This document shows positions 22,201 through 50,728 of a stretch of 64,000 bases of DNA, in pieces (the stretch's first letter is position 1; every line of letters begins with the position of its first letter). The notes under the pieces were generated by a model. It was given only the letters and a program-made list of their open reading frames with translations, did no database searches and was not told the origin of the DNA. Origin of the DNA: Aureispira sp. CCB-QB1 (GTDB lineage: Bacteria; Bacteroidota; Bacteroidia; Chitinophagales; Saprospiraceae); contig NZ_JHBV01000002.1 of assembly GCF_000724545.1 (NCBI RefSeq), forward strand, positions 1 to 64,000, written 5' to 3'. Made by a program: the position numbers and the translations under genes.

Positions 22201-22218
22201 GGATTTAGATTTAACGCT

Positions 22219-22411
22219 ACTCCGTTGAAAAATCGTATTAGTTTACTGTATGAGTGCTTCGCAGTTAATTATCAGTAAGATGAATCACTGTTAACCTTTA
22301 TACTAAAATACTAATAATCAAACTAATGCAAGATGTTTTTTTATGTTTTTTATAGAAAAACTAAAAAACTAAGCTTGCGCCCTCATGACCAGAGGGAATA
22401 ATCAACGGAGT
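22219..22411 (+). repeat. MITE-like dispersed repeat, 193 bp, copy B
   Basis: Ends ACTCCGTTGA (22219-22228) and TCAACGGAGT (22402-22411). Internal order matches copy A: GAGTGCTTCGCAGTT, then ATCAAACTAATGCAAGATG, then CTCATGACCAGAGGGAA (degenerate CTCACGACCGCAGGGAG). It is followed after 14 bp by copy C. Confidence 0.85.
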
Positions 22412-22425
22412 ATTAATTTAACATT

Positions 22426-22506
22426 ACTCCGTTGAAAAATCGTATTAGTTTATTACATGGTATTTCTATGCCCCAAACGAGCGCAGCAAATAATAATCAA
22501 CGGAGT
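22426..22506 (+). repeat. MITE-like dispersed repeat, 81 bp, internally deleted copy C
   Basis: Starts ACTCCGTTGAAAAATCGTAT as copies A and B do and ends TCAACGGAGT at 22497-22506, but has lost most of the interior. Lies head-to-tail behind copy B. Confidence 0.8.
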
Positions 22507-22774: not shown

Positions 22775-22821
22775 GCGGTCTGGACGGGACTCGAACCCGC
22801 GACCCCCTGCGTGACAGGCAG
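22775..22821. other. Left attachment site (tRNA-Asp 3' fragment)
   Basis: These 47 bp are identical to 44845-44891, the 3' portion of tRNA-Asp from the anticodon arm to the acceptor end plus one base. Identity stops at 22822. This is the duplicated att core left by tRNA-site integration. Confidence 0.92.
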
Positions 22822-23085: not shown

Positions 23086-24321
23086 ATGACATCAACAGCG
23101 AACATTGTATTAAACATTCACAAAAAATTAAAAGATGGAACACATTCTGTATCACTAGAAATTATCAAAAATGGCAAAAGACTTACTCTAAAAGCATTAA
23201 AGGTTAAATGCACTCAAAAGGAATGGAATCAGAGAAAGAACCTATTAAAGGTAGATACGAACCATACCAAAACAACGTACAGAAACTTTGAAAAAGCCAA
23301 TCGCTATTTAAAGGAAGTAAAAGAAAGAGCAGAAGCAATTCTACTTGATTTCCATACAAATAAGACTGATTTCACAAAAGAAATGTTCCTAAAAGCTTTT
23401 TTAGGTAAATCAGATACAAATGATAAGGTATTTGACTTTTTTGAGGAGATAATAAATGAAAAAAAAGAAGGAAAACAAAGCTTTAGAACTCTTGTTGACA
23501 CAAAGAATGCTTTATTTAAGTTTCATCCATACAAGAGCTTAACTTTCACTCAACTTGACTATAAATTTCTTGCAAAATTTGAGGCTCATCTACGCAGTAG
23601 AGGAAATATTGGTGGTGGTATAAGTGTAAGAATGAGAAGCATTCGTTCAATATTCAATGAGGCAATAAGAAGAAATATTGCTTTATCAAAAGATTATCCT
23701 TTTGACACATATAAAATATCTAATTTAAAAGAAGAAAAACCAAAAGTTAGATTATCACTTGAGGAAATGAAGAGCTTTGCATCCTTCAATGCAAAAGAAC
23801 ATCCGAAACTAGAAGTTTTTCACAAGCTATTCCTATTTAGCTATTACGCAAGAGGTATGAACTTCATTGACATGATGTTATTGCGTTGGGAAGACATTAG
23901 TGGTGAACGCATTTATTACAAAAGGTCTAAAACAGGAAAACACTTTGATATTCATATCAACACAAAGCTACAAGAGCTATTGAATTTCTTCAAAGAAAAT
24001 TATCCAATAGAAACTGGATACATTTTCCCAATTTTATTAAAAAAGGGGCTATCTAATAAACAAATCGAGTATAGAAGAAAAAAAGTATTGACACAATACA
24101 ATGCTGGACTAAAAAAAATAGCTAATGCAGTAGGAATTAAAAAGAGTCTATCAAGTAATGTAGCTCGTCACTCTTTCAGTTCAAACTTACAAATTAATGG
24201 ATACAATGCAGAGACAATTAAGGAAGCTCTTGGACATAAAAGCGTAAAATACACAAGAGTATATTTAGACAACTTCCCTAAAAGTCAAATTGATGACATG
24301 GCTAACTCTTTAGCCGTATAA
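23086..24321 (+). CDS. Tyrosine site-specific integrase
   Basis: 411 residues. It has an N-terminal arm-binding domain, a SAM-like core-binding domain at about 105-205, and a C-terminal catalytic domain. Catalytic landmarks: Arg in FSYYARGMNFIDMMLLRWED (about 263), a Lys in the YYKRSKTGKHF turn, NVARHSF (about 360) and the LGHKS to TRVYLDNF end, with the nucleophile Tyr near 396. This is the standard Bacteroidota phage/ICE integrase layout. It lies next to the left att site and presumably recombines the 47-bp tRNA-Asp core. The excisionase-like gene follows after 34 bp. Confidence 0.93.
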   Translation: MTSTANIVLNIHKKLKDGTHSVSLEIIKNGKRLTLKALKVKCTQKEWNQRKNLLKVDTNHTKTTYRNFEKANRYLKEVKERAEAILLDFHTNKTDFTKEMFLKAFLGKSDTNDKVFDFFEEIINEKKEGKQSFRTLVDTKNALFKFHPYKSLTFTQLDYKFLAKFEAHLRSRGNIGGGISVRMRSIRSIFNEAIRRNIALSKDYPFDTYKISNLKEEKPKVRLSLEEMKSFASFNAKEHPKLEVFHKLFLFSYYARGMNFIDMMLLRWEDISGERIYYKRSKTGKHFDIHINTKLQELLNFFKENYPIETGYIFPILLKKGLSNKQIEYRRKKVLTQYNAGLKKIANAVGIKKSLSSNVARHSFSSNLQINGYNAETIKEALGHKSVKYTRVYLDNFPKSQIDDMANSLAV

Positions 24322-24355: not shown

Positions 24356-24655
24356 ATGAATGAAGAAATATTTGAATTAAAATCACTCTTACAAGAATTA
24401 AATCAGAAGTTTGAACTAATTCAAACAAATCAAAGCATTAACGAAACTTATATCAGAGGATATAAGGAACTGGCTACATTTTTAAATATTTCCGAATCAA
24501 AGGCTAAACAATTGGCTAAGGAAGGAAACTTTTTAAAATATAATTTATCACAAAGGCTCGTTTTCTTTAATAAAGCTCAAATATTCAACTGGATTGAGTC
24601 AAAAAAAGAACAAAGCTACGAAGAATACCTAGCTCAGATGGAAGCTACCTATTAA
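24356..24655 (+). CDS. Small helix-turn-helix protein, excisionase-like
   Basis: 99 residues. A coiled N-terminus (about 1-30) precedes a winged-helix/MerR-like segment: YIRGYKELATFLNISESKAK, then QLAKEGNFLKY, then RLVFFNKAQIFNWIES, the usual pattern of excisionase and DUF3853-type proteins in Bacteroidota elements. Its place 34 bp behind the integrase suggests it directs excision. It could instead be a simple regulator of the island. Confidence 0.65.
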   Translation: MNEEIFELKSLLQELNQKFELIQTNQSINETYIRGYKELATFLNISESKAKQLAKEGNFLKYNLSQRLVFFNKAQIFNWIESKKEQSYEEYLAQMEATY

Positions 24656-25513: not shown

Positions 25514-25666
25514 GCATAACAAATGTTAATTATATCTCTTCATAAGACATTAACAGACAGGCAACAAATTCTATCATTCAACTTCCTATATTTCGCATCA
25601 GAATACGTTTTGCTGGTGTGTATATGGGTCTTTATTACGTTTATCAAATGTTAATTGCTTAGAAAA

Positions 25667-28000
25667 ATGGCTAAATTAAAAAAGAATGAACCTCTTCCAT
25701 TAAGACCATCATCACATATCAAAGAAGATGACTCCAAGAGCATTTTCATGGATGCTATTACCCCTTGGATGTTTCAAGGAGCTACAAATAGAGAATATGG
25801 CATAGATGGTTTTGTAGAAATAACCCAAGCTCCAAGCTATTCCGAAGACCAAATAGTAACAGGAAAAAGGTTTTCCATTCAACTAAAGTCTTCAAAATCA
25901 AGTAAATTTAGAAAAGATTTTTTTTCGCTCTCCATTGATGTTCAAAAAATTAATTATTGGCGAAACTCAATAGAACCAATAATGTTAGTTTATGTTGACC
26001 TAAATTCTGAGGTCTGTTATTATCGATGGATTGATGACAATTTAGTACAAGAGCTAAATAATAAAAACCCAAACTGGATAGCTCAACAGACTATAAGCAT
26101 CCGTTTCGTAAAGAATAAAACCATCAATGCAAAATCACTAATTGATATTCAGAAATATGTTCACGCGTGGAAACGTCCTTCAAAAACTGTACTAAATGCA
26201 GGCAGTTATTTTAAGTATAGCAATGAAGCAACTTTGCTAATAAATTCTCTTTCTGATTCTGTAAAAGAACATAAGGTAAATTTTCTTTCTCAACAGCTTG
26301 ACGAACTTATCAAAACAACGAAACAATCAATATATACAATTGCAGTTGTCGGACCGAATAAAGCAGGCAAGAGTACTCTTATAAACACTCTTATACAAAA
26401 AGATATTTCTCCTATTGGACGACTTCCAACCACAGGAATTCCAATTACAATTTTCCCAAGTAGCGAGAACAAGGCAATCGTAACTTTCAAAAATGACAAA
26501 AAAATTGAAGGAAAAGCTAACTCTATCTTTCTACGAGAATACACAACAAAAGATGAAAACCCTGATAATGAAAAAAATGTCAAAATTGTTTCTGTTCAAG
26601 TAGTAAACCCTGTACTTGAACGTGGGCTTGCAATTTGTGATGTCCCAGGATTAGACGACCCCGATGAAGAAATAAGGAAAATAACTAAAACAGCTTTATT
26701 CAATGTAAATGCAATTGTTTATTTGATAAGTGCTGGTTCTTATGCTAGTGGAGACTTTTCAATAAACAATCAAATCATCAAAGACTTAAGCAGTTTAAGT
26801 GGTAGAATGGATAGAATTTTTCTTGTTTTTAATAAAATAGATGCTTTGTCTTCTAATGAATTAGTTGAATTAAAAGAGTATGTGAGTAGGACTCTTAAAC
26901 GTCATAATGTACTAGATTATTTAGCTTCTGACCCAATTTATATTAGTGCCAAGCTCTCATATGAATGTCGTCTTGAAAATCAAAGAGATAGTAAAAACGA
27001 TAGCGTAAAAGAATTAGAAAGCCAAATATGGGAGTATCTATTGAGTAATAACAAAACAGGGCTTCATAATATTCTTGGGAGTTTTGCAGATTGCTTGAAA
27101 CTCATTGAACAAATGCGAACTATAATTAACGCAAGAATGGTCAGTTCAGACAAGAGAGAACATCTTGAAAAAGAGATTCATATCATTTCATCCGAAATTA
27201 AGGGAGTCAATAAGCTTGTCAGAAAAAAACAGAAACAAATCTACCTTACACTTGAGGAGTTTTTAATAAATTCCTTGAATGGATTATTAGATTATCTATA
27301 CAAAGACCTAAGTTCCTATCCTCTTCATAAGCCAATCCCTCAAAATAAAGATATTACAAAGTGGCTTGAAGACAATGCTTTTAAAACGATTTCAGATACA
27401 TATAGATATTTAGATGAGTATATCTATGACTTACAATCAACTATCAACAGTTGGATTTCTAAAAAACTAAAACAAGTAGAGATAGGAATTGAATCTCCTG
27501 AAAACATAATATCAACTCAAATGCCTGAGATAACACGCTTTACTAACCTAATAAGTGTCCATTATTATGACAAAAAAAAGGGATATTTAGGAATATTAGA
27601 ATCATTTTTTGGAGGAGTTGCAACTACCATAGAGAGTGTTTTTACTGCTATTGGGAATATTTTTACGTCTGAAGAAAAAAAACGAAAACAACAGATTAAT
27701 AACATTCTGAAGAACTCAAAACGTAGTTTTGATAATATTGCTAAGGATTGCTTATTAAACCTAAACAAGCATTTATTGAGCAAGTGTAATTTCATGGAAG
27801 AAAAATCTTTAGATAGAGCTAGAGTGTATTTAGGGGAACTATCAGAGCAGTTAAAAGATTTGGATAAACCAATTTCTAAATCCGAAAAGAAGAACTACAA
27901 TTGCTTCATAGAAAAAGTCTCAAAACTAGAATTAGAAATCCAAAGTAATTTATCCAATTTAAAGGATTACACTAATTGGATTGATGATGATATAAATTAG
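25667..28000 (+). CDS. DUF4365 nuclease-like domain fused to a dynamin-family GTPase
   Basis: 777 residues from the ATG at 25667; a TTG at 25655 would add four. Residues 20-150 form a DUF4365-type PD-(D/E)XK-like domain: EYGIDG with Asp47, then FSIQLKSS with Gln72-x-Lys74. A dynamin-like GTPase follows: P-loop GPNKAGKST (about 229), the switch Thr in GRLPTTGIPI, DVPGLDDPD (about 324) and NKID (about 388). A long helical stalk completes it, with a Gly-rich hydrophobic segment at about 638-662 (LGILESFFGGVATTIESVFT) that could insert into membrane. Bacterial dynamins remodel or sense membranes and several act in antiphage defence; fusion to a nuclease-type domain suggests infection-triggered activity (inference). 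First gene of a three-gene operon. Confidence 0.78.
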   Translation: MAKLKKNEPLPLRPSSHIKEDDSKSIFMDAITPWMFQGATNREYGIDGFVEITQAPSYSEDQIVTGKRFSIQLKSSKSSKFRKDFFSLSIDVQKINYWRNSIEPIMLVYVDLNSEVCYYRWIDDNLVQELNNKNPNWIAQQTISIRFVKNKTINAKSLIDIQKYVHAWKRPSKTVLNAGSYFKYSNEATLLINSLSDSVKEHKVNFLSQQLDELIKTTKQSIYTIAVVGPNKAGKSTLINTLIQKDISPIGRLPTTGIPITIFPSSENKAIVTFKNDKKIEGKANSIFLREYTTKDENPDNEKNVKIVSVQVVNPVLERGLAICDVPGLDDPDEEIRKITKTALFNVNAIVYLISAGSYASGDFSINNQIIKDLSSLSGRMDRIFLVFNKIDALSSNELVELKEYVSRTLKRHNVLDYLASDPIYISAKLSYECRLENQRDSKNDSVKELESQIWEYLLSNNKTGLHNILGSFADCLKLIEQMRTIINARMVSSDKREHLEKEIHIISSEIKGVNKLVRKKQKQIYLTLEEFLINSLNGLLDYLYKDLSSYPLHKPIPQNKDITKWLEDNAFKTISDTYRYLDEYIYDLQSTINSWISKKLKQVEIGIESPENIISTQMPEITRFTNLISVHYYDKKKGYLGILESFFGGVATTIESVFTAIGNIFTSEEKKRKQQINNILKNSKRSFDNIAKDCLLNLNKHLLSKCNFMEEKSLDRARVYLGELSEQLKDLDKPISKSEKKNYNCFIEKVSKLELEIQSNLSNLKDYTNWIDDDIN

Positions 28001-28045
28001 AAGCTAGATATTCCAATAATAACTCAAAACAAATAAGCAAACAAA

Positions 28046-30001
28046 ATGGATATACCCTTAATAGAATATGAAGAGGCAAAAGAAGACTTGAAAAAACAGA
28101 AAGACTTAGGTGATTTGATAAGTAATGCTTTAAAACTGGGGATTAATCAAAAAAAATTCACCTTTTCAAAAACACAAGTGGAGTCGAAGTATAAAAAATT
28201 GATTGACTCAAAACTATTGCAATTTAACGATAGAGCTAATCATTACACCTTTGATTTTGAATCGCCTCTAATCTATATCAAATCTATAGAATATGCTAAT
28301 AATTTATTAAAAAGGAATCCATCTAATAATCCATATGATGCTATAACTTTTGCTAATGAATTTCTTGATGAGATAAAGAAACCACGCACTAATTATAATT
28401 GGTTCACAACAACTTTTAGTAGAAATATTAGGTTTTACATGTTATTAGAATGTGAAAATTATTTTATTAATAATTTTGACGAACTTAAAAACTTGCTTAC
28501 AAAGGAACAAGAACATCGTTCCTCTGCATTTGATGTAAAACTATATATTGATGATGTTGTTCCCTATTACAACTTGACTACAGAACAATTTTGGGAATTA
28601 TCTAATTCTATTTCTTTAACAAATGATAAAGACCGTTACATTGCCAATAATATTATAACGACTGTTGCAGGAAGGTCACAAGAACGAGCAAAAGAATTTC
28701 TTAAAATTATTAAAAAAGGGAGTAATGATTCAGAATATAAAGTTCCTGTAATCATAAAGTTATCAAAATTTGACTACAACACTGCATTACAAGAAAGTCT
28801 GAAGTTGTTAAACAATAGACAATCAGAATCTCTAGGGCTGCAATGTATTTGTAGACTTTATTATCCTAGCACAAAAGAACTCTTATATGTATATAACCTT
28901 ATAAAAGACCATACTTCACAAGAAATCGAATACATTGTAGAATTGCCAATGGCTTATAGTAATTTCATGGAACATGATTTCACAACTAGAGAATTAAGAG
29001 ATAATGTCATAAATGAATTTAAAACGCTGATTATACACGATGACACGAGAGTTGTTAATGCAGCGATTTATTGGATTTCAAGTATCACTGAGTACGAAGA
29101 GGAAAGGATTGATTTTCTATTTCAGTTAGTTCAAAGAGATATTCCTGTTGATTTCCGAATGTATTTTAGAAAATTTTCAGACCCTTCTTATTTATTTCGA
29201 TTTGTCCAAGGATATTATCTCGCCCTAAAACTTAGTGCCAATATAAAGCTATTTAAGCCTGCTTTTGATTCTTTAGAATCAAAACACCCTCAGAAGTTCT
29301 ATAAAAATCTAACTGAGTTGATTTCAAACGACATTGGATTGATAAGAAAAGCTGGGCTTGATTTAATTACTTCTAAAACCTCAGGAGCATATAACCTAGA
29401 CCTCTTAATATTAGATGAAAAAAGGCAGGTTATCGTCATTGATGCATTACTTTCAGTGCCTTTTCAAATTGAGAAGACACTACCTATAGTTCTTCAACTA
29501 AGGAATAGTCAATTCCAAATTGTAAGAGATTTTTTATATCAAAATCTAAAACAGTTAATATTTGCATATCAAGGGGTAATTATTGAATTACTTGAATCTA
29601 GTCTTGACAAGACAGTTCCAAGTGATTTAGATTTACTTTCAAAAATTCAAAGAGTTTGGACTAAGTACAAAAAAATCCTAAAAACAAAGAAGGGGTTATT
29701 AGAGCTTAATCCATTTATAAATCAGAAACGATATGCTGAAATGTACTACAGAGAGGAAAGAGAGTTCAATACAGAAAAAACTGAAGAAGCTCGAAAGAAT
29801 AGCACTATGATACAAATGGGGTTAGTCAATGAAATATCTGTTATTAGAGGTTGTGCTTTCAAAAGTGAAGGTAGTAATAGGATAACTAAACTCACGACTA
29901 TAGAACAAATAACATATAGAGATAAAAGGTATTTCATAAACCCATCTGTTTATGAAGCCACATACAGAACTCAAATTTTGTTCAAAAATTACAAACCCTA
30001 A
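28046..30001 (+). CDS. Unrecognised 651-aa helical-repeat protein, middle gene of the defence operon
   Basis: 651 residues with no signal peptide or transmembrane helix. Residues 1-75 are charged and could form a winged-helix-like module (FTFSKTQVESKYKKLIDSKL). From about 90 to 520 helices are arranged like HEAT/ARM repeats (for example the pairs around NFMEHDFTTRELRDNVINEF and LTELISNDIGLIRKAGLDLI). The last 70 residues look beta-rich. No catalytic motif. It lies 45 bp after the GTPase gene and 8 bp before the PD-(D/E)XK gene, so it is probably a scaffold or sensor joining the two. Family unknown to me. Confidence 0.6.
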   Translation: MDIPLIEYEEAKEDLKKQKDLGDLISNALKLGINQKKFTFSKTQVESKYKKLIDSKLLQFNDRANHYTFDFESPLIYIKSIEYANNLLKRNPSNNPYDAITFANEFLDEIKKPRTNYNWFTTTFSRNIRFYMLLECENYFINNFDELKNLLTKEQEHRSSAFDVKLYIDDVVPYYNLTTEQFWELSNSISLTNDKDRYIANNIITTVAGRSQERAKEFLKIIKKGSNDSEYKVPVIIKLSKFDYNTALQESLKLLNNRQSESLGLQCICRLYYPSTKELLYVYNLIKDHTSQEIEYIVELPMAYSNFMEHDFTTRELRDNVINEFKTLIIHDDTRVVNAAIYWISSITEYEEERIDFLFQLVQRDIPVDFRMYFRKFSDPSYLFRFVQGYYLALKLSANIKLFKPAFDSLESKHPQKFYKNLTELISNDIGLIRKAGLDLITSKTSGAYNLDLLILDEKRQVIVIDALLSVPFQIEKTLPIVLQLRNSQFQIVRDFLYQNLKQLIFAYQGVIIELLESSLDKTVPSDLDLLSKIQRVWTKYKKILKTKKGLLELNPFINQKRYAEMYYREEREFNTEKTEEARKNSTMIQMGLVNEISVIRGCAFKSEGSNRITKLTTIEQITYRDKRYFINPSVYEATYRTQILFKNYKP

Positions 30002-30009
30002 CTTTTCAA

Positions 30010-31722
30010 ATGAAACAAATAATAGTAAGAGAATATTTAGAATCATTGAAAGAAGATGGAGAATTAGACCTTATTTTTCCATTATTATTAGAAACCTTAG
30101 ATTTCCAAATAGTCACAAGAGCTAAAGAATATAAAGGACATAAGCAATATGGAAAAGATATTATTGCCTACGGAACAGACCCTTATGATAATATAAAAAA
30201 ACGTTTCTATTTTGAGTTAAAAGGAGGGAGAGCACGTCATATTAATGCTAAGAATTATGCAGGAGACGATGGAATAAGAATGTCCCTTGTTGAAGCTATT
30301 GACAGGGATTTTTCTGATAATTCTATTGAAGGGTTCAATGAACTTCCAATAAAAATAGTAATAGTCCACAATGGCATTCTTCAGCCTGACGTTAGTGAAA
30401 CTTTTGATGGGTTTATAAAAAAGAATTTTCCTAACGGAGAATCCCACTTTGCTAGATGGGGAATTTCTACATTAACTAAATTATTCTCAGAGTATTTATT
30501 TAATGAATATTTACTGACTAATGAAGAGAATATTAGGCTTTTCAAGCGTATGTTGGTTTTTATGGATGTCCCTGAAAATAGCCAAAGAGATTTTTATATT
30601 CTAGTCAATAATCTTATTTCGAATACTAAGGTAGGCAAACTTAATAAAAACAATTTTCCTGTACACCTAACAAGATTTTTTGAAACTTTAAAATTGATAG
30701 GGTTAATAACACATCAATATTCTAAAGAAGCTAACAATTTAGAAATAAGCAAAAACTGTGTTACATTTTTAGTTCTACAAACATGGTATTGGATTCTTTC
30801 GAAAAAGATAGAATCGGATAATAGAATAATCTCAAAGTTTAAAGAACTTATGCATTTGCACAAAGTTATATTAGATGAATATTTTGCAAAAATGTTACCA
30901 ATAGCTATCTCAGAGTATGGTTTGTATTCTGAAAGTGGTGGAAGATATGAGCAAATAGGCTTTCCAATAAGATGTATGGATTTTGTTAAATACCTCATTT
31001 ATTGGTTCTCTAGCATGACAGAAGAAGAGAAACAAGAATCTAACTCCGTTGAAACTTTAACAACTATTATTAATAACAATGATGGATGTTATCGCCCTTT
31101 GCTTGACAATCATTCTATATCTGTATTTCTTATTATTCAATTTTATATTGAGAATGGAGATACAAAAAATGCAAGAGTATATTTAATAAAAGTGTTTGAC
31201 CAAATTCTTCTCAACCAAAAATATAGCAAGATTTTTCCTGATGGGAATAATAATCCTGAATCGCTAATTAGGCTTATTATCAAAGGAGAAAAAAGTATTT
31301 ATTATGAAGACACAGGGTCAATGTTAGTTGGTATGTTGTTTGAATTTTTAGCTCTCTTCGATATGAAAGAGGAGTATGATGCATTAAAAGGCAAATTTGC
31401 TGATATTGAACTTTCTACATACATCCCTTTCACAGATAAAATGCTTACCCAGTACCTTCCTGAATTAAAAGAATCACATGAAGAGACCCTTTTTAAGCGA
31501 GAGATGTATAGAGAGGGCTTCCAGTCAGAAATTCGCTTAGAAGCAGAATTTGAAAGCTTTAAACATAAGACTTTTAAGAAGGATGAATATTCAATAAGCT
31601 ATAAAACAAAAAAATTAGGTTTTGGTAAATTAATAGACTTAGCACATATACACTATAATACGCCTTTTTTCCCTAAAAAGTGGAGAGGGTTAATGGGGGG
31701 GAATCCAACCAAAGCCCTTTAA
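30010..31722 (+). CDS. PD-(D/E)XK nuclease-like protein, third gene of the defence operon
   Basis: 570 residues. The N-terminal 170 residues have the layout of a restriction-endonuclease fold: a helix with Glu, then YGKDI (Asp50), then FYFELKGG (Glu69-x-Lys71), then alternating helices and strands (IKIVIVHNG). The D-x18-E-x-K core is consistent with an active nuclease. Residues 200-570 are helical and unrecognised, possibly contacting the middle protein. It starts 8 bp after the previous stop, so translation is probably coupled. The operon thus carries nuclease-type folds at both ends. Confidence 0.65.
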   Translation: MKQIIVREYLESLKEDGELDLIFPLLLETLDFQIVTRAKEYKGHKQYGKDIIAYGTDPYDNIKKRFYFELKGGRARHINAKNYAGDDGIRMSLVEAIDRDFSDNSIEGFNELPIKIVIVHNGILQPDVSETFDGFIKKNFPNGESHFARWGISTLTKLFSEYLFNEYLLTNEENIRLFKRMLVFMDVPENSQRDFYILVNNLISNTKVGKLNKNNFPVHLTRFFETLKLIGLITHQYSKEANNLEISKNCVTFLVLQTWYWILSKKIESDNRIISKFKELMHLHKVILDEYFAKMLPIAISEYGLYSESGGRYEQIGFPIRCMDFVKYLIYWFSSMTEEEKQESNSVETLTTIINNNDGCYRPLLDNHSISVFLIIQFYIENGDTKNARVYLIKVFDQILLNQKYSKIFPDGNNNPESLIRLIIKGEKSIYYEDTGSMLVGMLFEFLALFDMKEEYDALKGKFADIELSTYIPFTDKMLTQYLPELKESHEETLFKREMYREGFQSEIRLEAEFESFKHKTFKKDEYSISYKTKKLGFGKLIDLAHIHYNTPFFPKKWRGLMGGNPTKAL

Positions 31723-32156: not shown

Positions 32157-35100
32157 CTAGATTTTTAACTTATGTTCTTCTAGCCTAAATTCAATTACTC
32201 CATCATCATTAGTTTGGGGTACAATAAATCCCTTTTCAAACTGTTCTAAAGCTTCTTCCCTATAAAATGTATCAAATACTTTTAAGGAAGCGTTGGTGTT
32301 CCCTTCAGGTACTTGGTTTAAGTCAGCATTATAAACCCGATAAATATGATAGTTTTCTTTATTTTCAAGCATGAACTTCCATTCATTTTCAGAAAGATAA
32401 ATTGGCTCATCATACAATCCCCTTGAAGTAGTTTTCACATCAATATAAATGCTTTCACCTTCATTAGTTGTTATCTTAAAATCATAAGGTTCTCCTGAAT
32501 CTTGGATTCCACCAAAGCCATTTTCTATATATACCTTGTTTTTCCACTCAACATTATCAGTATTATTTTCAAATCTCTTTAACAATATATTGTAGACGTA
32601 CTTTTCTCCCCAATTGCCAATCTTCTTTAATTCAGGACTATGATGTCCTCTAGAATGACGAGAATTTTTAGACTTCTCTCTTTTGTTTACAAAATCCTGA
32701 ACATGCTCTTGTTTCAATTGAGATTCATCAGAAGACAGTTGGTCTAGAACTAGAGGTATCATATTTTTTTTCTCCTCTAGTATAAAAATATCATTTCCGA
32801 CAATAATCGAATTTCCAAATTCTATTGATTTTACTTCAATAGTTTTATCAAAGAAAACGCGGTGAGTTATTTTTTTACAAAAATATATTTTAAACCCATG
32901 TTCATTACTCCATTCTTTATAAAAAGTAGCATTGTATTCATTGCCTTCAACCTTATAGGCTGTCATATCCTCTAAAGTCAAACCTAAATAATCACTAACA
33001 CTGGAACATTCAAAATTTGGAAGTATATCATGGCAAACTAAAAGCCCTTTCTTACTTGAACTCAAAACATCAAACACTTCTTTTATTGAAGTTCTAAATT
33101 CCTCCCACTTTTCGGACTTGTACTTATAGAAAGTGTCATCATTCTCTTTTAAATGAATTTTAAAACTGACTTCACCAAAGTCTGTCACATTCGATACTAT
33201 AGGCACATAGTCCTTCGTTGAAGATAATGCAAAAATTCTACCTAAATCGGCTTGATTATCTGTAATAATGTTCTTTGAATGAAGCCACTTCAGCATCCTA
33301 CCATGATTGATAGATTTACTTTTTGTTTCAAAGTCTTGCAAGAGAACACCATCAAAATGTTTCCGAGTAAGATAAACATATGAATTCCAGTTTTTTATAT
33401 TCAAATTAAAGAATATCATTTGTTTTTGAGGAATTCCTGAGAATAGTGCTAAAAACCAATCATCTAACGATTCGTCAGGCAGTAAATACCTTTTATCATT
33501 ATCACTTGTAATATATATTTTAATTCTAGGGCTAAATCCTAGTATTTCCTCCCATTTTATACCATGTACTTGCAACCTCTTATCTTTCTTATTGGGTATC
33601 GGATTTTGCACCCAACTTTTAATTAGGTAAGACATAAACTCCTTTCTCTGCTCAATAGACAAAGATGCTTTAATTGATGGCACATGGAATACTTCTTCTT
33701 CAAAAAAAGGATTTTTAATCAAAACAATCTTATCCTGAATTCGATATGAATTGGCATTTGGAATTAAAATATTTTCTAACTCCTGAAAGGCAGAATCAAA
33801 AATAAAGTCATCCTTTATAAAGTTATAGTTACGTGTGTAACGAACACCATCCTTAATAAATAAATTGCTAGAAGAACCAATTTTCTGAAATTTGAATCCA
33901 TTAAGCAGCTCAATATTTTCTGACTCGTGAGCATAAGCATATAAAAATGCTAATTCATGACTTTTTGTGATTTGTTTAGGTAAAAGAGAATGAATAGTTG
34001 CCAGTTTCATTGGTTTCTCAACTCCTAAGAACTGCTTTAATTTTAAACCTAACAATTCAAACTGCTTAATTATTCCATCTAATAAACCGCTTTTATTAGC
34101 ATATCCTTGTCCCAATACACTTGAAACAGTTAGAATGTCCTCCTCTATTGTCTTCAAGGATATTTTGTTATTCATGTTCACATCCTTAAGACTTTTAGAT
34201 ACTCCTAAACTATCTTCAATCACTATCTTTTCTCTTATTGATATTCTATCAGATACTACTTGCTTATCTTCTGCGGATTGAGCAATTTCCAGCAATTTAT
34301 ACTCCACACTTTTTTCAGTGTAAGAGACACCTTCTTTCAACCTAATTTCAGGTACATAATTGTAGATATACTCCCACTTTATCTGTCTAAGCTCCTTATC
34401 CTTAATACAATGAACAACATCTATAACACTCTGATAATCAATTTTAATTTTCTCTAATAGGGATGTATATATCTCAAAGGGAATTTTTAAACCTATTAAT
34501 CTTAAATCTTCAAAAGTATAGCTCTTGTAAATAGATTGAGGTATCCTATTAAAAACTGATGGGTAGTTTTTTTCTATATATGAGTAGAGTTTTACATAGC
34601 TTACATCATCAAGAGACAAATAATAATTATTAATCTCATCTTGATACATTAACTCATAACCACCATCGTTTATAGCAACAATTTTGAGAAAACTGAATAT
34701 TTTTTCTTGATTCTTTATTGAATACTTTATTAGAGCATCCACTTCGGATTCTGAGTGCTTAGATGTAGATATGTTATTAGCACTTAAATTTTGCAATCTT
34801 TGAAACAAAAAGCTTCCACCTCGAATATATTCTAAACCATCTATATTTTTAATGAATGAATTTAAGAATATAAAATCTTCAAAATTTTGATTTGTTATTA
34901 TAAAGCCTAACTTCTCAAGCTCTGCTCTAATCGGAACAATTCTGTTATGATTAAGGATTATTGACTTGTTCTCTACTATATCGTTAAGTGAGTATAATTT
35001 ATCCTTACCTTTAATAAATTTTATGTTTTTAAATATTTCTTTAAATTCTGACGACTGCTCATTCTTCCATTGGCTCTCAATTAATTTAATAAACTCAGGA

Positions 35101-36878
35101 ATTATCTCGGTATTATTAGCCAACCACTCATCAATTTTTGTAACGTCTTTTGTGTTCGATATAAGTTTACATATATCCCACTTCTCAATCTTTAATTTAT
35201 ACTGATTATCAGCATCTTTTACAATATTCTCATGTTCTTTATCTCCTGCATTCCATAAAAACCATTGTATATTTTCAACTCCAAAGTCAATTGGCAATAT
35301 ATCAAATCCAGTATTATTGATTCTTACACAAGAAACATCCTTAGCATATTCTTGTTCTCCTTGTACTGGAATATTCTCTTTTATATAGCTTAAAAGAGGT
35401 AAGTATAAAGGTTGAAAAATCTTTCCGTCTTTGAAAACAGAATTGGAAGTTAAAATAGCAACATATATATCTAAAAACTTCTCTTTATTTGTGGTCTTAT
35501 ACCCATCTAACCTCTTTATTAAATGTTCTGTAAATATGATAAAAAGTCTTTCATTTCGCCCATAATCTTCTTTGGCTTTTTCCTCATCTTTCTTCCCTTC
35601 TGTGTAATACAAGGAAGTTCTTTGACTCGCATTATAGAAGGCATTTGAGTGTATTACAAAATTAAGCCCATACTTTTCATCACTAAGTGGGAAATAAAGG
35701 TAGAAATTGGGCAATTCTTTGATATGTTCTTTAGAAGAAAGAGGATAATAGCCAAAAAGAATTTCAATAGGTGTTTTATCTACGCCCTTTACATCTGACA
35801 TTATATACTCATAATCGTTTTGATGGTCAATTGGATTTATTTCAAAGACATCTTCAATAATTATTGAGGCAGGTTTTATTGTATCTTCATTGATTTGGAC
35901 TTCATTTAATATTTCATTTTTTTTATGATGCTGTCCTATTTTGTTAAGAAACGTAAGAGAAAACTCAATTCCCTCATCAAGCTTATCTTCAAGTAAAATA
36001 TTGGCTTTATCTTTCCCCAGCTTAAGAAAAAATATACTCCCTTCTTCAATATCTCGTAGGTTTAAACCATTATCCGTATCTATTTTGTTTAGCCAACTGA
36101 CCATTTTTAGGACCTCACCATCACTAAACAATTGATTAGTCTCTTGATAATGGTAATTTTTTGATAAATCTCTTGGTTGGCAAGGATAATTAGTCAGTAA
36201 AATTTTAAAGAACCATGCAAAGTCATTATCCTTCCACTCATGCTTTGCAAAGTCATCTTCTTTTCGTTTTATCTCTTCTTGAATGTTTTCACCATCCAAA
36301 GGAGAAAAGTTAATATCTTCAACTTTTGTCAAATCCATTAACTGCTTTAATTGAAAGTTTTTCCAACTAAAAAGAATCGGACCATAATTCTGATTAATTA
36401 ATTCATCAATTCCTGAAGTTTCTCCAACAAGTCTATGCACTAGTTTAAAACCAATCCCAAATTTACCAATATTGTGCTTATCCTCATTAGACTTCGTCGA
36501 TTGACCGATATTCAAAATTGAACGGACTCCTTCAAAATCAAATTGTCTTCCATTATTAATTGCAAGAAAATACTCTCCATCTTCGCCATCAGGTCCATAA
36601 AACATATAAAACAGAGAAGACTCAGCATCAACGGCATTCTGCAAAAATTCATAAACAGCTTGGCTATCTTTTGCCATGTCTAAGAAACCAGTAAGAAACC
36701 CCTTAATATCTTTTTTGTCAGCGTGAGCTATTTCAAAATATCCTTTTATTTCTTTATCACCTGATAAAATTGAATGCCCAATAAAATTTTCATCCCTATT
36801 ATCCTTGGCATCTCTTACTATTGCTTTATAATACTTACGATATTGCCTTATGTTCTTTATTTTCATATATTTAAGCAT
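32157..36878 (-). CDS. Giant GHKL (Hsp90-like) ATPase with C-terminal DUF3883 domain
   Basis: 1573 residues from ATG 36878; ATG 36866 is also possible. Residues 60-160 contain a GHKL ATP site: AVYEFLQNAVDAESS (Asn81, Asp84), INNGRQF and HNIGKFGIGFK (138-144). This matches the sacsin-type N-terminal ATPase domains of bacterial defence proteins. A long unrecognised middle follows. The end (about 1430-1550) is a NO VEIN/DUF3883-type domain with a PD-(D/E)XK-like core (GNWGEKYVYN, PYDFKI, IYIDVKTTS). One protein thus pairs an ATP-driven conformational switch with a nuclease-like effector. It looks like a stand-alone defence gene, divergent from the small nuclease gene at 37089 and convergent with the three-gene operon. 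The effector role is inferred. Confidence 0.72.
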   Translation of the reverse strand: MLKYMKIKNIRQYRKYYKAIVRDAKDNRDENFIGHSILSGDKEIKGYFEIAHADKKDIKGFLTGFLDMAKDSQAVYEFLQNAVDAESSLFYMFYGPDGEDGEYFLAINNGRQFDFEGVRSILNIGQSTKSNEDKHNIGKFGIGFKLVHRLVGETSGIDELINQNYGPILFSWKNFQLKQLMDLTKVEDINFSPLDGENIQEEIKRKEDDFAKHEWKDNDFAWFFKILLTNYPCQPRDLSKNYHYQETNQLFSDGEVLKMVSWLNKIDTDNGLNLRDIEEGSIFFLKLGKDKANILLEDKLDEGIEFSLTFLNKIGQHHKKNEILNEVQINEDTIKPASIIIEDVFEINPIDHQNDYEYIMSDVKGVDKTPIEILFGYYPLSSKEHIKELPNFYLYFPLSDEKYGLNFVIHSNAFYNASQRTSLYYTEGKKDEEKAKEDYGRNERLFIIFTEHLIKRLDGYKTTNKEKFLDIYVAILTSNSVFKDGKIFQPLYLPLLSYIKENIPVQGEQEYAKDVSCVRINNTGFDILPIDFGVENIQWFLWNAGDKEHENIVKDADNQYKLKIEKWDICKLISNTKDVTKIDEWLANNTEIIPEFIKLIESQWKNEQSSEFKEIFKNIKFIKGKDKLYSLNDIVENKSIILNHNRIVPIRAELEKLGFIITNQNFEDFIFLNSFIKNIDGLEYIRGGSFLFQRLQNLSANNISTSKHSESEVDALIKYSIKNQEKIFSFLKIVAINDGGYELMYQDEINNYYLSLDDVSYVKLYSYIEKNYPSVFNRIPQSIYKSYTFEDLRLIGLKIPFEIYTSLLEKIKIDYQSVIDVVHCIKDKELRQIKWEYIYNYVPEIRLKEGVSYTEKSVEYKLLEIAQSAEDKQVVSDRISIREKIVIEDSLGVSKSLKDVNMNNKISLKTIEEDILTVSSVLGQGYANKSGLLDGIIKQFELLGLKLKQFLGVEKPMKLATIHSLLPKQITKSHELAFLYAYAHESENIELLNGFKFQKIGSSSNLFIKDGVRYTRNYNFIKDDFIFDSAFQELENILIPNANSYRIQDKIVLIKNPFFEEEVFHVPSIKASLSIEQRKEFMSYLIKSWVQNPIPNKKDKRLQVHGIKWEEILGFSPRIKIYITSDNDKRYLLPDESLDDWFLALFSGIPQKQMIFFNLNIKNWNSYVYLTRKHFDGVLLQDFETKSKSINHGRMLKWLHSKNIITDNQADLGRIFALSSTKDYVPIVSNVTDFGEVSFKIHLKENDDTFYKYKSEKWEEFRTSIKEVFDVLSSSKKGLLVCHDILPNFECSSVSDYLGLTLEDMTAYKVEGNEYNATFYKEWSNEHGFKIYFCKKITHRVFFDKTIEVKSIEFGNSIIVGNDIFILEEKKNMIPLVLDQLSSDESQLKQEHVQDFVNKREKSKNSRHSRGHHSPELKKIGNWGEKYVYNILLKRFENNTDNVEWKNKVYIENGFGGIQDSGEPYDFKITTNEGESIYIDVKTTSRGLYDEPIYLSENEWKFMLENKENYHIYRVYNADLNQVPEGNTNASLKVFDTFYREEALEQFEKGFIVPQTNDDGVIEFRLEEHKLKI

Positions 36879-37088: not shown

Positions 37089-37505
37089 ATGAAATACAAT
37101 AAACAAATAACAGGATTATCAGGAGAGTATTTTGTCGCAGCAGAATTACTTAAAAGAAATTATCAAGTTGCAATAACAATGGGGAATGCAAAAGCGATTG
37201 ATTTATATGCAACAGATGAAGAAACCGAAAAAACATATTCTATTCAGGTAAAGACACTAAGAAAGAAACCTAACTGCTTTACACTCCATACTCGAAAAAT
37301 TAGGGAAGATACAGTTTACTTCTTTGTTTATCTTAATCCAATAGAGAGACCACCTGAATATTACATAGTTACAGGCAGAGAACTACTAGCTCAAAAAAAA
37401 CATTTTTATGGTGCTAGTTTAGGTAGAAGGGATGGACGTGAAACTGTAAATCATGGTCCTTTAAGAGAGCACTTTGAAGCTTGGGACAAATTAAAAAGTG
37501 TTTAA
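37089..37505 (+). CDS. Small PD-(D/E)XK endonuclease-like protein (PDDEXK_5 type)
   Basis: 138 residues, compact single domain. Motifs: SGEYFVAAELLKR (Glu13), AIDLYA (Asp38) and YSIQVKTLRKK (Gln53-x-Lys55), followed by a strand-helix end. This E-D-QxK arrangement matches the PF11645-type PD-(D/E)XK group common in small stand-alone genes of mobile elements. It ends 6 bp from the convergent HEPN-like gene. It may be a solitary nuclease, a resolvase-type enzyme or part of a toxin system; the sequence does not decide. Confidence 0.7.
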   Translation: MKYNKQITGLSGEYFVAAELLKRNYQVAITMGNAKAIDLYATDEETEKTYSIQVKTLRKKPNCFTLHTRKIREDTVYFFVYLNPIERPPEYYIVTGRELLAQKKHFYGASLGRRDGRETVNHGPLREHFEAWDKLKSV

Positions 37506-38191: not shown

Positions 38192-38818
38192 ATGAATCAA
38201 AATACCCAAAACAATCTAGGAACTGGCATTTTTGCCATTTTATTCTGTATTCTATTATATTTTATACCATTAAATTCAATAGAATCATTTTTATTGGCTA
38301 AAGTTGGTTTGTCCAGTCTTATAGCTAAATCACTTGTTGTTATTTATGCTCTGTTGGCTTTTGCAGTAGTGAGGGCTATAACCAAAGCACCAAGTTCGTT
38401 TATTATCTCCTTAATTTATGTGTTCCCTCCTATAGTCTTTACATCTTGGATAGGAGTTGAGGACTTTAATCGTGTGAATCACATATCATTCTTTACACTC
38501 CCAAGTATAATAGCCTATTCTTACTTAGGGTTTATTGCATCTATTCCAATCAGTCTTGAGTTTTCAAGAAAGTCATTAACTCCAATCCTATTGCTATTTT
38601 CTGTAGCCATATCCTTTTTATTTGCGGCAATTTGTTGGGAAGCAATATTAGGGGCTGAAATAGGATTAATTGCCGATATAGTGAAGCTAAAGGTTACTTA
38701 TTCAGTAGCAGGATTAATTTCATTTCTTGTGTTTGCCTTCGTTTCAATTCCTATCTCTTACCTTTTGATAGCTATTTCATACATCCTTCCTAATATAAGT
38801 ACTGAATCTACTAATTAA
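38192..38818 (+). CDS. Integral membrane protein, about six helices
   Basis: 208 residues with hydrophobic segments near 12-30, 42-62, 68-87, 95-120, 130-155 and 170-200. There are no conserved charged residues within the helices and no recognised family. It starts 120 bp from the divergent HEPN-like gene and ends 20 bp before the 390-aa gene, so the two are probably one transcription unit. In a defence island a membrane partner next to a cytosolic protein could act as an effector channel or anchor; that is speculation. Confidence 0.6.
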   Translation: MNQNTQNNLGTGIFAILFCILLYFIPLNSIESFLLAKVGLSSLIAKSLVVIYALLAFAVVRAITKAPSSFIISLIYVFPPIVFTSWIGVEDFNRVNHISFFTLPSIIAYSYLGFIASIPISLEFSRKSLTPILLLFSVAISFLFAAICWEAILGAEIGLIADIVKLKVTYSVAGLISFLVFAFVSIPISYLLIAISYILPNISTESTN

Positions 38819-38838
38819 TAAATTTTATATTATTTCAC

Positions 38839-40011
38839 ATGTTTGAAGAAATCACAATATCCTCACGAAAAAACGAGAGTAATGTTTTAGGGCAAATTGC
38901 TGAAGCAATGTTGTTTTATCAGAAAGTTAATTTAGTTTGTTCTCCTGTTTTATTCCAAGAATTAGTTAGACAAAAAAAATTGGATTCTTTTGTGGAGTTA
39001 ATGGCTACTCCTTTTTTAAATGTAATGTTAGAAGAAAATTTGCTTGCTACAGAAACTAGAAAAATAAAAGGCAGAAAGTATTTGTATTGGCAAAGAATGG
39101 GGCTTGCCCAACACCCTACCAAGACGGTGTATGATAGACTTGATTTGGTAATCAACAGAGAAACGGGAAATAGTGCTTATACTAACTATATCATGCCTAA
39201 AATAATAAAAAACTCATCCTCATTCCTTCATTCTAAAAAAGTATTGGAATACATCTATAATGATTTGGATGATAATACTTATCTTAAAAGAGCTATTGCT
39301 CAAGCTATTAATTTATACACCCCCGTCTTAAACATAACCCCTGAAGAGATACAAATACTAAAAGAAGAAATTCGAGAAGGGTTTGTTATTCAAACCAATC
39401 CCCCCTTTGAAGTAATAAATCAGTTTAGTCCTAATCAGATTTTTGACTCTAATACAATCCTTGAAAACTTAACCAGCGCAAGATTAGATTCCTGTATTGC
39501 ATCCGATTTGAATAGTGATTTTGCATCTAATCCAGTCATTTTTTCACTTGTAAAAGAAAAGATAACGTCTATTATTGAAAGGTCAATTAACAATTCTCAA
39601 AAAATTGATTGCTTTTCTGAATTAGTTTTGTCTCAGGGGCATTCTCTTAGTAAAACAATAAATCAGGGGAATCGGTCCATTGATGAATTAATAAAGCTTA
39701 TTGACAAGGCGAGTAAATTCAAAGAATGGCTTGGTAACATTGGTTCTGATGAATCTTTAATTAAAGAATACTATGATGAAGTCACGAAAGGTACTTGGGT
39801 TGACAAATCCACAGGGAAGAGTTTCCGATGGATGTTTTTTACTTGGACGGGGATGTTAGCTGATATGTTTACAGGAGGAACAGGGAGTTTAGCTTTAAGT
39901 ATAGGTGATAGTTTTTTATTGGATAATCTCATTTCAGGTTGGAGACCCAACTCTTTTGTTGATGAAGATTTAATCCCTTTTGTTGAGTCAATTAACAAAA
40001 AAGCTTCGTAA
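38839..40011 (+). CDS. Uncharacterised 390-aa protein with conserved-looking C-terminal block
   Basis: No signal peptide. The N-terminal 270 residues are mostly helical. The C-terminal 100 residues include EWLGNIGSDESLIKEYYDEV, then TKGTWVDKSTGK, then a Gly-rich hydrophobic stretch (LADMFTGGTGSLALSIGDSF) and FLLDNLISGWRPNSFV. I recognise the style of this block from uncharacterised proteins near defence genes but cannot name a family. The hydrophobic stretch may contact the membrane, fitting its pairing with the membrane protein 20 bp upstream. Confidence 0.55.
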   Translation: MFEEITISSRKNESNVLGQIAEAMLFYQKVNLVCSPVLFQELVRQKKLDSFVELMATPFLNVMLEENLLATETRKIKGRKYLYWQRMGLAQHPTKTVYDRLDLVINRETGNSAYTNYIMPKIIKNSSSFLHSKKVLEYIYNDLDDNTYLKRAIAQAINLYTPVLNITPEEIQILKEEIREGFVIQTNPPFEVINQFSPNQIFDSNTILENLTSARLDSCIASDLNSDFASNPVIFSLVKEKITSIIERSINNSQKIDCFSELVLSQGHSLSKTINQGNRSIDELIKLIDKASKFKEWLGNIGSDESLIKEYYDEVTKGTWVDKSTGKSFRWMFFTWTGMLADMFTGGTGSLALSIGDSFLLDNLISGWRPNSFVDEDLIPFVESINKKAS

Positions 40012-43467: not shown

Positions 43468-44154
43468 TTATGCACATTCCAATATCTTATGTACTCTCTC
43501 CCCATCTCTTTCTAAGTCTGTTCCTCTTATTCCCCAATATAAACCATCCATCTTGTTCCAATCTTTTAATATGTAATTCATTCCAGCCATTGAGTTACGG
43601 TAGTCTTCAACATGATTAATGGCATGAGGAAATTGATTATCTAAAATAGATTGAATAGTTTCATTTTCTAATGAGCCAAATAAAGCAATATGATTGTGAA
43701 AACCTCCACCACGTTTTTTAAACGGTTCTGTTGAAAACAAAATACGAAGCGATTTTTTAGGATATTGTTTTCGTAGCTCATCAAATAACTTATCCATATT
43801 TGAACGACAATGCTCAGGCGATAAATCTTTTTCGTAAGATACTGTACAGAAATATGACCAATCAAGATAGGATAAGAATGTAGCTAGGTCATTTGGATTC
43901 TTTAGTTTATTCACATAAGTTTTAATCCTTTTCAATTCTAACTCTAAATCTTCTTCATTTGAGCTTAGGATTTTTTCGGGAATAAATTCTGTTAGAAACT
44001 GCTTCTTGTGATAATATTTAGTTCCTTTCTTTTTTACCCAATCACTTTTCATTTTATCATTTGCTATCTTTTTTCTTCTTCTTGCTATTGTTTTCTTGCA
44101 AATACCAAGCAATTCGGCAATCTCTTGTGTTGTGTAACTCTTTTTTAATTTCAT
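43468..44154 (-). CDS. HUH-type rolling-circle replication initiator (Rep) with N-terminal HTH
   Basis: 228 residues. Residues 5-50 form a helix-turn-helix (SYTTQEIAELLGICKKTIAR). Residues 105-215 carry the Rep signature: FCTVSYEKDLS, then GGGFHNHIALFG, in which His-Asn-His is the metal-binding HUH motif, then GMNYILKDW, which holds the candidate nicking Tyr in Y-x-x-K form. The length suits small replicon and mobile-element Reps. It probably nicks the excised circle for replication or strand transfer. It sits about 690 bp from the right att site, with an imperfect hairpin 57 bp upstream that could be the nick site. Confidence 0.75.
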   Translation of the reverse strand: MKLKKSYTTQEIAELLGICKKTIARRRKKIANDKMKSDWVKKKGTKYYHKKQFLTEFIPEKILSSNEEDLELELKRIKTYVNKLKNPNDLATFLSYLDWSYFCTVSYEKDLSPEHCRSNMDKLFDELRKQYPKKSLRILFSTEPFKKRGGGFHNHIALFGSLENETIQSILDNQFPHAINHVEDYRNSMAGMNYILKDWNKMDGLYWGIRGTDLERDGERVHKILECA

Positions 44155-44836: not shown

Positions 44837-44844
44837 ATTCTAGG

Positions 44845-44891
44845 GCGGTCTGGACGGGACTCGAACCCGCGACCCCCTGCGTGACAGGCAG
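44845..44891. other. Right attachment site (inside intact tRNA-Asp)
   Basis: 47 bp identical to 22775-22821. Because it completes the tRNA 3' half, integration leaves a functional tRNA-Asp. Confidence 0.92.
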
Positions 44892-44919
44892 GTATTCTAA
44901 CCAACTGAACTACCAGACC
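44846..44919 (-). tRNA. tRNA-Asp (GTC), downstream copy, integration target
   Basis: 74 nt on the minus strand: acceptor arms GGTCTGG / CCAGACC, discriminator G, anticodon loop CTGTCAC with GTC, and T-arm GGGTTCGAGTCCC. CCA is not encoded. The 3' 46 nt lie in the att repeat. Confidence 0.96.
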
Positions 44920-44959
44920 AAAATGAGTAAACTCACTTTGTATTTTATTGTAAAAGTTG

Positions 44960-48507: not shown

Positions 48508-48663
48508 GTATGCTGCTTCTTTTTTGGTTGTTTGGGTCTTATGTTTCCCTTCTTATAACTGGTCTTTGAAACTACAAAATAGGCTTTTTGTTTTTTATTT
48601 TAAAATCGTAGATGGATTGGTGGGTTTTATTTTTTGGAATGTGTATCTTGGGATTCAAATTAT

Positions 48664-49992: not shown

Positions 49993-50728
49993 ATTAACCT
50001 TTGAACCTAGACCTATTGGATTAACAGATGCCCTTGTAAAAGAGTTAACCGATTTATTCAAACAAAATAAAAAAAAGGCAGTTTGGAAACGAAAAGATAT
50101 TAAACAAGCACTTCTAAAAATGTCTAACAACAAATGTTGTTACTGCGAATGTGATGTTGTTCAAGCAAGTAACTATATGCAAGTAGAGCACTTTTATCAT
50201 AAAGATAAATTTGAAGACAAAGTACTAGATTGGGAAAATTTACTTCCTTGTTGTCAACGTTGCAACACCACAAAAAACGACCATGATGTTGTGGAGACAC
50301 CTTTAATCCATCCTGCTATTGACAATCCTCAAGACGAGCTTTCTTTTAAACTATATCGACTTTATGGTAAGACAGATTTAGGAAAGGAAACCATTCGTAA
50401 AATCAACCTTAACGATGATGATAGATTGGTCGATGTTCGTTATGCCTTGGGTAAAGAACTTATTTTTGAATTAGAAGAAATCTTAGATAAAGCGGAACGT
50501 TTTGAAAAAGGACTATATAGCCAAAAAGGACGGCTGACTTCTCATTTATCCAAAATCATGAAACGTTGCATTCCTAGTACTGTTTTCAGTGCTACCAAAG
50601 CAACCATTCTACTCCATGAGGATTCTTATCAACAAACCAAAGCAATTTTTATAAAACACAATCTCTGGGCACCTACATTTCAAGAATTAGAAGACTTGGC
50701 AAAATCTTGTGCTTTAGATTTAAAATAA
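49985..50728 (+). CDS. ptuB: Septu-type HNH endonuclease PtuB
   Basis: 247 residues. The HNH core at about 48-100 carries Cys pairs (NKCCYCECD and LLPCCQRCNTTKND), the catalytic-type histidine in VEHFYHKDKF and the Asn in DWENLLP. A helical C-terminal half follows. In Septu the PtuA complex controls PtuB, which cuts DNA on infection. The start codon overlaps the end of ptuA, implying coupled translation. Good match to the known pair in order, size and motifs. Confidence 0.82.
   Translation: MIKLTFEPRPIGLTDALVKELTDLFKQNKKKAVWKRKDIKQALLKMSNNKCCYCECDVVQASNYMQVEHFYHKDKFEDKVLDWENLLPCCQRCNTTKNDHDVVETPLIHPAIDNPQDELSFKLYRLYGKTDLGKETIRKINLNDDDRLVDVRYALGKELIFELEEILDKAERFEKGLYSQKGRLTSHLSKIMKRCIPSTVFSATKATILLHEDSYQQTKAIFIKHNLWAPTFQELEDLAKSCALDLK

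Follow-up and report, generated by a model that had tools for sequence, protein, structure and literature searches.

Bacterial dynamins assemble on membranes, and the Eleos system is built of paired dynamin genes, LeoA and LeoB or LeoBC. The Olokun system was reportedly named in the study of Millman et al. 2022. It is cited in the accessible part of PMC10121019, and the accessible part of a review (PMC12926258) assigns it to a group of systems with the mechanism "Unknown", citing Doron et al. 2018 together with Millman et al. 2022; the literature searched, a scope outside which the paper naming Olokun falls, yielded no description of its mode of action. In SPARDA, the DREN nuclease alone displays no detectable activity, filament formation induces a tetramer, and tetramerization activates collateral cleavage, according to the accessible part of PMC12205087, which gives D41, Q60 and K62 as the catalytic residues of the NbaSPARDA DREN domain. 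The available text of PMC10810196 reports that an activated DUF4365-APAZ/Ago complex cuts DNA non-specifically and proposes Q62/K64 as possible residues of the active site. The B. subtilis dynamin DynA, as described in the available sections of PMC8844932, confers GTPase-dependent phage resistance, clusters at the membrane and shifts to confined motion there during infection. We analyzed a locus at positions 25667-31722 of a 64-kb stretch of DNA from Aureispira sp. CCB-QB1 (contig NZ_JHBV01000002.1; hereafter, the window), in which three open reading frames (ORFs) are encoded on one strand, with intergenic gaps of 45 and 8 bp.

The original prediction, made from the sequence alone, placed these ORFs and gaps correctly and presented them as an undescribed three-gene defense system. 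Our analysis indicates instead that genes 2 and 3 are the described Olokun system and that gene 1, which encodes a predicted DREN (DUF4365) nuclease domain fused to a bacterial dynamin, is a separate gene beside them (Table 1); what appeared in the raw sequence to be a new trio is a known system adjoining a separate gene. The reading that we consider probable, if by a narrow measure, is that the locus is a mobile defense island that carries Olokun and, directly upstream of OloA, a stand-alone DREN-dynamin, a one-gene defense effector whose nuclease would be switched on by dynamin assembly. The gene identities, the island borders, the DREN catalytic residues, the GTPase motifs and the BDLP-like stalk with a hydrophobic tip are established by sequence analysis, and we infer the effector role of gene 1.

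The Olokun genes

Residues 117-637 of gene 2 and residues 3-561 of gene 3 match the PADLOC profiles OloA and OloB, respectively, over most of the length of each gene, and the two genes adjoin on the same strand, with the 8-bp gap between them, which agrees with Olokun. The 651-aa product of gene 2, originally said to belong to no recognized family, is identified by this OloA match even though Pfam and NCBIfam offer nothing credible. No credible Pfam or NCBIfam family was found for gene 3 either (for gene 2, NCBIfam returned nothing), and comparison with solved structures produced no credible match for OloA or OloB. The window differs from the described system in the unrelated DREN-dynamin upstream of OloA and in a feature of OloB.

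The D-x18-E-x-K nuclease core originally noted in gene 3 is present in the window protein (D50-x18-E69-x-K71) but is not general to OloB. In an alignment of the window protein with those of 18 of the 19 other Olokun loci described below (L038 left out), E15, E18, D50 and K71 are kept in 19/19 sequences, whereas the glutamate preceding K71, E69, is kept in three, the window included. Because E69 occurs in only these three sequences, the core appears to be a trait of the window's OloB branch. The single-sequence AlphaFold model of the OloB N-terminus has a predicted local distance difference test score (pLDDT) of 37.5, too poor for reading a fold. Homology between OloB and DREN was considered and rejected (profile-profile comparison probability 0.3).

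A DREN nuclease domain fused to a bacterial dynamin

Gene 1 starts with ATG at 25667, with a TTG alternative at 25655. A Pfam search with its product detected DUF4365 (residues 34-163, E 1.2e-14) and Dynamin_N (residues 225-359, E 1.2e-17), and the motifs EYGIDG, IQLK, GPNKAGKST, DVPGLDD and NKID that had been listed for it are all found in the translation. A profile of the gene 1 family matched the solved structures of the bacterial dynamin-like protein BDLP (2j68, E 1.4e-18) in the GTPase region and of the SPARDA DREN-APAZ protein (9jsb, E 1e-5) at the N-terminus. When the N-terminal piece alone was used, two distinct structure sequences were retrieved at E <=0.1, namely 9jsb (E 2.7e-5) and the DUF4365 protein 9qbq (E 0.0011). 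In the HMMER alignment, with residues counted by hand, D47, Q72 and K74 of gene 1 align with the catalytic D41, Q60 and K62 of NbaSPARDA. These residues and E20 are invariant in all 11 aligned sequences (window included; the broken homolog L042 left out) and also in the relative L030, and the catalytic D, Q and K are kept in 12/12 intact family members, window included, with overall identity to the window protein down to 20%. The P-loop GKS and the DxPG motif are kept in 11/11 sequences, GKS also in L030.

The AlphaFold model of gene 1, obtained with the 11-sequence alignment (pLDDT 75.4; predicted TM-score, 0.60), consists of an N-terminal domain, a GTPase domain and long helices, with pLDDT below 50 at residues 40-43, 55-65 and 611-666. 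The N-terminal domain is modeled as alpha-beta-beta-beta-beta-alpha-beta, with D47 preceding a strand and Q72 and K74 within one strand. A Foldseek search with this model gave BDLP (2j69) as the best PDB match (E 2.2e-17; TM 0.50/0.56; root mean square deviation, 8.0). The original prediction had already pointed out a hydrophobic, Gly-rich stalk segment. Starting at residue 641, it exceeds every other 19-mer of the protein in hydrophobicity, and in 11/11 sequences scored (window included) the most hydrophobic 19-mer sits in the same aligned tip segment, which is a candidate membrane-inserting paddle but falls in the poorly modeled residues 611-666. The catalytic D-Q-K set on a predicted PD-(D/E)XK core identifies the N-terminus of gene 1, by sequence and monomer model, as a DREN domain, and the G1-G4 motifs together with the modeled stalk fold mark the rest as a bacterial dynamin. 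Of the initial claims, those of a dynamin, of a DUF4365 domain of nuclease type and of a setting among defense genes are supported, given the Pfam matches and the presence of the catalytic residues of a DREN proven active elsewhere.

Comparison of gene 1 with the closest described systems points to likenesses that are confined to parts of the protein. The DREN core contains the same D/Q/K residues as the SPARDA nuclease, whereas the remainder of the protein is a predicted dynamin rather than APAZ, and the PADLOC Aga_REase match covers residues 35-149 only. No Argonaute protein is present among the PADLOC matches listed for 17 distinct window proteins (for two of them, the best 25 families), so that the APAZ domain and short Argonaute partner of SPARDA both appear to be missing from this locus. 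The dynamin part is related to LeoBC of Eleos (PADLOC E 3.9e-13, residues 160-755), but this match begins after the DREN domain, and there is no second dynamin beside gene 1 in the window: the upstream gene has no PADLOC match at E 0.01 and the downstream gene is OloA. With BDLP, gene 1 shares the GTPase and stalk fold in the model; unlike BDLP, it bears an added nuclease domain. The fusion looks undescribed. The PADLOC matches listed include no model for a DREN-dynamin fusion, only models for its parts; no DUF4365-dynamin fusion was found in the literature searched, a scope outside which preprints and most subscription papers fall, such that it may be in print, nor in the accessible parts of the literature on bacterial dynamins with phage, nucleases and defense.

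Co-occurrence of the three genes

The comparison set consists of 19 other Olokun loci, each combining an OloB-family with an OloA-like gene (five from genomes and 14 from plasmids; OloB matched 34 plasmid records, of which 14 were fetched), and 12 other DREN-dynamin loci. Four of the Olokun loci are weak or broken: L038 is weak for both genes, L010 and L141 for OloA only, and in L138 both genes are fragmented. The count of 19 leaves out weak or partial OloB-family matches in genomes G705, G516, G660 and G165; inspection of the regions in the first three revealed no gene 1 relative, and G165 contains a fragment match only. The DREN-dynamin loci, which include the broken L042, comprise 11 from a search of the gene 1 alignment against genomes of 84,980 species, built on two short peptide patterns, plus L030 from genome G146. 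This search kept 80 of 126 relatives, representing 79 loci, in 11 of which DUF4365 precedes the GTPase.

Within the fetched flanks, OloA or OloB was found in 0/12 other DREN-dynamin loci, and any part of gene 1 (E 0.01) in 0/19 other Olokun loci. The closest OloB relative found (genome G138, 47%) belongs to a plain two-gene locus without a dynamin. The original prediction itself named an exact match to a known system and a failure of the three genes to co-occur elsewhere as findings that would speak against it: two of the three genes match a named system, and the trio is absent from all other loci examined. The three-gene system was rejected on the strength of this absence. Tight operon spacing was also rejected as evidence for the trio: a same-strand neighbor at <=50 bp is present for 7/12 gene 1 family members (window included) and for 106/191 other ORFs of the same loci, a rough background that consists of mechanical ORFs of at least 90 aa and leaves out L042. 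There are no terminator-like sites between the three genes, in a scan that finds no more of them (2) than are found in shuffles (2.9).

The distribution of gene 1 is patchy. Among 395 genomes of the class, gene 1 has seven matches at E <=1e-12, five of them near full length (own genome included), and OloB has three, including the own genome and one fragment; an OloB-family search of 395 genomes of the phylum gave nine matches, own and weak ones included. Among 248 genomes of the family, gene 1 (E 1e-25) and OloB have one match each, in both cases the own genome. DUF4365 occurs at 18 places in 16 of 295 class genomes, and four of these places are dynamin fusions, the window's included. A tblastn search of plasmids with gene 1 matched 13 records, none covering 80% of the gene, and six scans of viral contigs retrieved relatives of neither gene 1 nor OloB.

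Proposed mechanism and alternative explanations

Because DREN requires tetramerization and DynA acts at the membrane in a GTPase-dependent manner, assembly-driven activation of the nuclease at a disturbed membrane is suggested for gene 1; the whole chain, from sensing through to cleavage of DNA, is hypothetical. Phage-caused disturbance of the membrane or envelope would lead the dynamin part of gene 1 to bind the membrane and to assemble there in a GTP-dependent manner, and the resulting crowding at the N-terminus would let the DREN domains form an active multimer. The multimer would then cut DNA without sequence preference, and the infected cell would become dormant or die. Dynamin self-assembly would stand in for the SPARDA Argonaute filament in gathering the DREN nucleases, and Olokun would act independently of gene 1. 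A broader proposal, which we put forward tentatively and regard as rather doubtful, is that gene 1 is the founding member of a family of nucleases activated by assembly, in which the dynamin senses a membrane change caused by phage and its GTP-dependent polymerization switches on DREN, a one-protein membrane-to-nuclease switch that works alone or beside other systems. If this is true, membrane-surveying dynamins and filament-activated collateral nucleases, themes that are usually separate, would be joined in one polypeptide; the DREN effector of SPARDA would serve more than one activator; and gene 1 would be a single-gene, readily testable case of a dynamin signaling infection.

Several observations weigh against an assembly-activated nuclease. 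No functional assay of gene 1, or of a relative, came to light, and DynA, in the accessible part of PMC8844932, works by delaying lysis, which indicates that other modes of defense are available to a dynamin. The hydrophobic tip of the window protein is the weakest of the 11 sequences (maximum 1.26), and the G4 motif NKxD deviates in 3/11 (TKIN in L043 and L046; HKAD in L051). Gene 1 was modeled as a monomer only, with poor regions in the N-terminal domain (residues 40-43 and 55-65), and the best 50 Foldseek matches listed include no nuclease, all of them being dynamins and related GTPases.

The DynA precedent (PMC8844932, accessible part) and the LeoBC match are compatible with an Eleos- or DynA-like dynamin that protects the membrane, with a DUF4365 domain that merely binds nucleic acid or is idle; the invariance of the catalytic D, Q and K at such low overall identities argues against this, and we consider such a role unlikely. 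It is similarly improbable that the DREN-dynamin is a roving add-on that enters operons of unrelated systems (Gabija, STAND ATPases, Olokun) as an extra effector for the adjacent sensor. Tight same-strand linkage to GajB (L043), GajA (L048), an MBL-fold protein (L030) and OloA (window), as well as to STAND/AAA-type ATPases (upstream in L044, downstream in L045 and L047), would fit such a role, but this tightness is about that of the island background, and 5/12 dynamin genes have no tight neighbor.

A true third subunit of an Olokun variant, passing a membrane signal to OloAB, would account for the shared strand, the short gaps, the lack of terminator-like sites and the location of all three genes within one island. 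Against it stand the ordinary nature of such spacing, the dynamin-free locus of the closest OloB relative found and the lack of co-occurrence in either direction within the fetched flanks, which make this variant very unlikely. Bacterial dynamins do have housekeeping roles, and gene 1 could in principle be a non-defense membrane gene carried by chance; given its patchy distribution (near full-length matches in 5/395 class genomes and, at E 1e-25, only the own genome in the family, with none in a genome of the same species), its location in an island and its defense neighbors, we regard this as the least probable explanation.

Gene neighborhoods of the gene 1 relatives

Nine of the 11 loci from the 84,980-species search carry titles that, by genus, we take to denote Bacteroidota groups; of the others, L048 is titled "bacterium" only and L051 belongs to Myxococcales. 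Twenty neighbor proteins, hand-picked from 10/12 loci, were compared with PADLOC as a survey of company rather than a test of enrichment; 14/20 have a match at E <=1e-5 and 6/20 have none. Clear matches comprise Gabija GajA/GajB in L043 and L048, a type I restriction subunit also in L048, an Avs1b-like protein (L045), PifA (L046) and PDC-M54A (L051); L030, L041, L044, L050 and L051 (LeoA-like) yielded weaker or partial ones, and L042 none. According to Pfam, STAND/AAA-type ATPase genes directly adjoin the DREN-dynamin in L044, L045 and L047, and in L030 a patatin and an MBL-fold protein are encoded upstream of the gene 1 relative.

In L044, L045 and L047, the DREN-dynamin gene overlaps or almost abuts the ATPase gene. 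In L051 (7411-12310, a Myxococcales bin), the LeoA-like protein is encoded immediately before the DREN-dynamin, so that the two form an Eleos-like pair of which one partner bears a nuclease. The highest segment identity to gene 1 (46%) is found in L042 (10001-12302, Flavipsychrobacter stenotrophus), where the homolog is divided between two ORFs and seems to be broken.

A mobile island in a tRNA-Asp gene

Gene 1, OloA, OloB and a Tiamat-like gene share one 22.1-kb integrated element in tRNA-Asp, delimited by 47-bp direct repeats (Table 1). The third copy of the repeat lies in a second, tandem tRNA-Asp. In G852, a genome that belongs to the same species, there are two copies, compared with three in the window; on the left side of its first copy, 989/1000 bases are identical to the left flank of the window (ungapped), and on the right side 994/1000 are identical to the right flank. 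Because the two flanks of the window meet at one repeat copy there, G852 is an empty site from which the island segment is absent, and neither gene 1 nor OloB was found in it at thresholds of E 1e-25 and 1e-10. An Rfam scan of 22000-46000 at gathering scores detected two tRNAs only. The best stretch of the TmtA match covers profile positions 1-631 of 1552; we take TmtA to denote Tiamat.

Table 1. Predicted features of the Olokun and DREN-dynamin island in the 64-kb window
Feature	Positions	Strand	Evidence
Left 47-bp direct repeat (att site)	22775..22821	.	Identical to 44845-44891 and third copy at 44959
Island tyrosine integrase	23086..24321	+	Pfam Phage_integrase 1.3e-15, Phage_int_SAM_5 3.2e-16, Arm-DNA-bind_5 3.7e-9
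Small helix-turn-helix / AlpA-like protein	24356..24655	+	HTH_17 1.1e-4, Phage_AlpA 0.0095, both under Pfam cut-offs
Gene 1: predicted DREN (DUF4365) domain (~15-165) and bacterial dynamin (GTPase ~220-440; stalk, hydrophobic tip ~611-666)	25667..28000	+	Pfam, 9jsb, 2j68, AlphaFold, Foldseek 2j69
Gene 2: predicted OloA of Olokun	28046..30001	+	PADLOC OloA E 2e-33
Gene 3: predicted OloB of Olokun, N-terminal nuclease-like D50/K71 motif	30010..31722	+	PADLOC OloB E 1.5e-118
Tiamat-like TmtA (sacsin/HSP90-type ATPase, NOV_C)	32157..36878	-	PADLOC TmtA E 9.6e-182; NCBIfam P_loop_sacsin 3.1e-17
Replication-initiation-like (Rep-like) island protein	43468..44154	-	Pfam REP_ORF2-G2P 7.1e-8
tRNA-Asp (gtc), integration site	44843..44920	-	ARAGORN; Rfam RF00005
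Right 47-bp direct repeat, within tRNA-Asp	44845..44891	.	Repeat match

Within the island, just past the Tiamat-like gene and divergent from it, a 138-aa PDDEXK_5-like protein is encoded (37089-37505; E 2.3e-4, under the Pfam cut-off). Two further same-strand island genes (38192-40011), encoding a hydrophobic protein of 208 aa and a protein of 390 aa, have no Pfam or PADLOC match at E 0.01 and are possible additional cargo. A dispersed repeat family is represented at 22212-22457 of the window by roughly 200 bp with dozens of matches in G852 and in G925, a genome of the same genus. Just beyond the island, at 48634-50728, PtuA (E 6.2e-115) and PtuB (E 5.8e-87) form a Septu pair.

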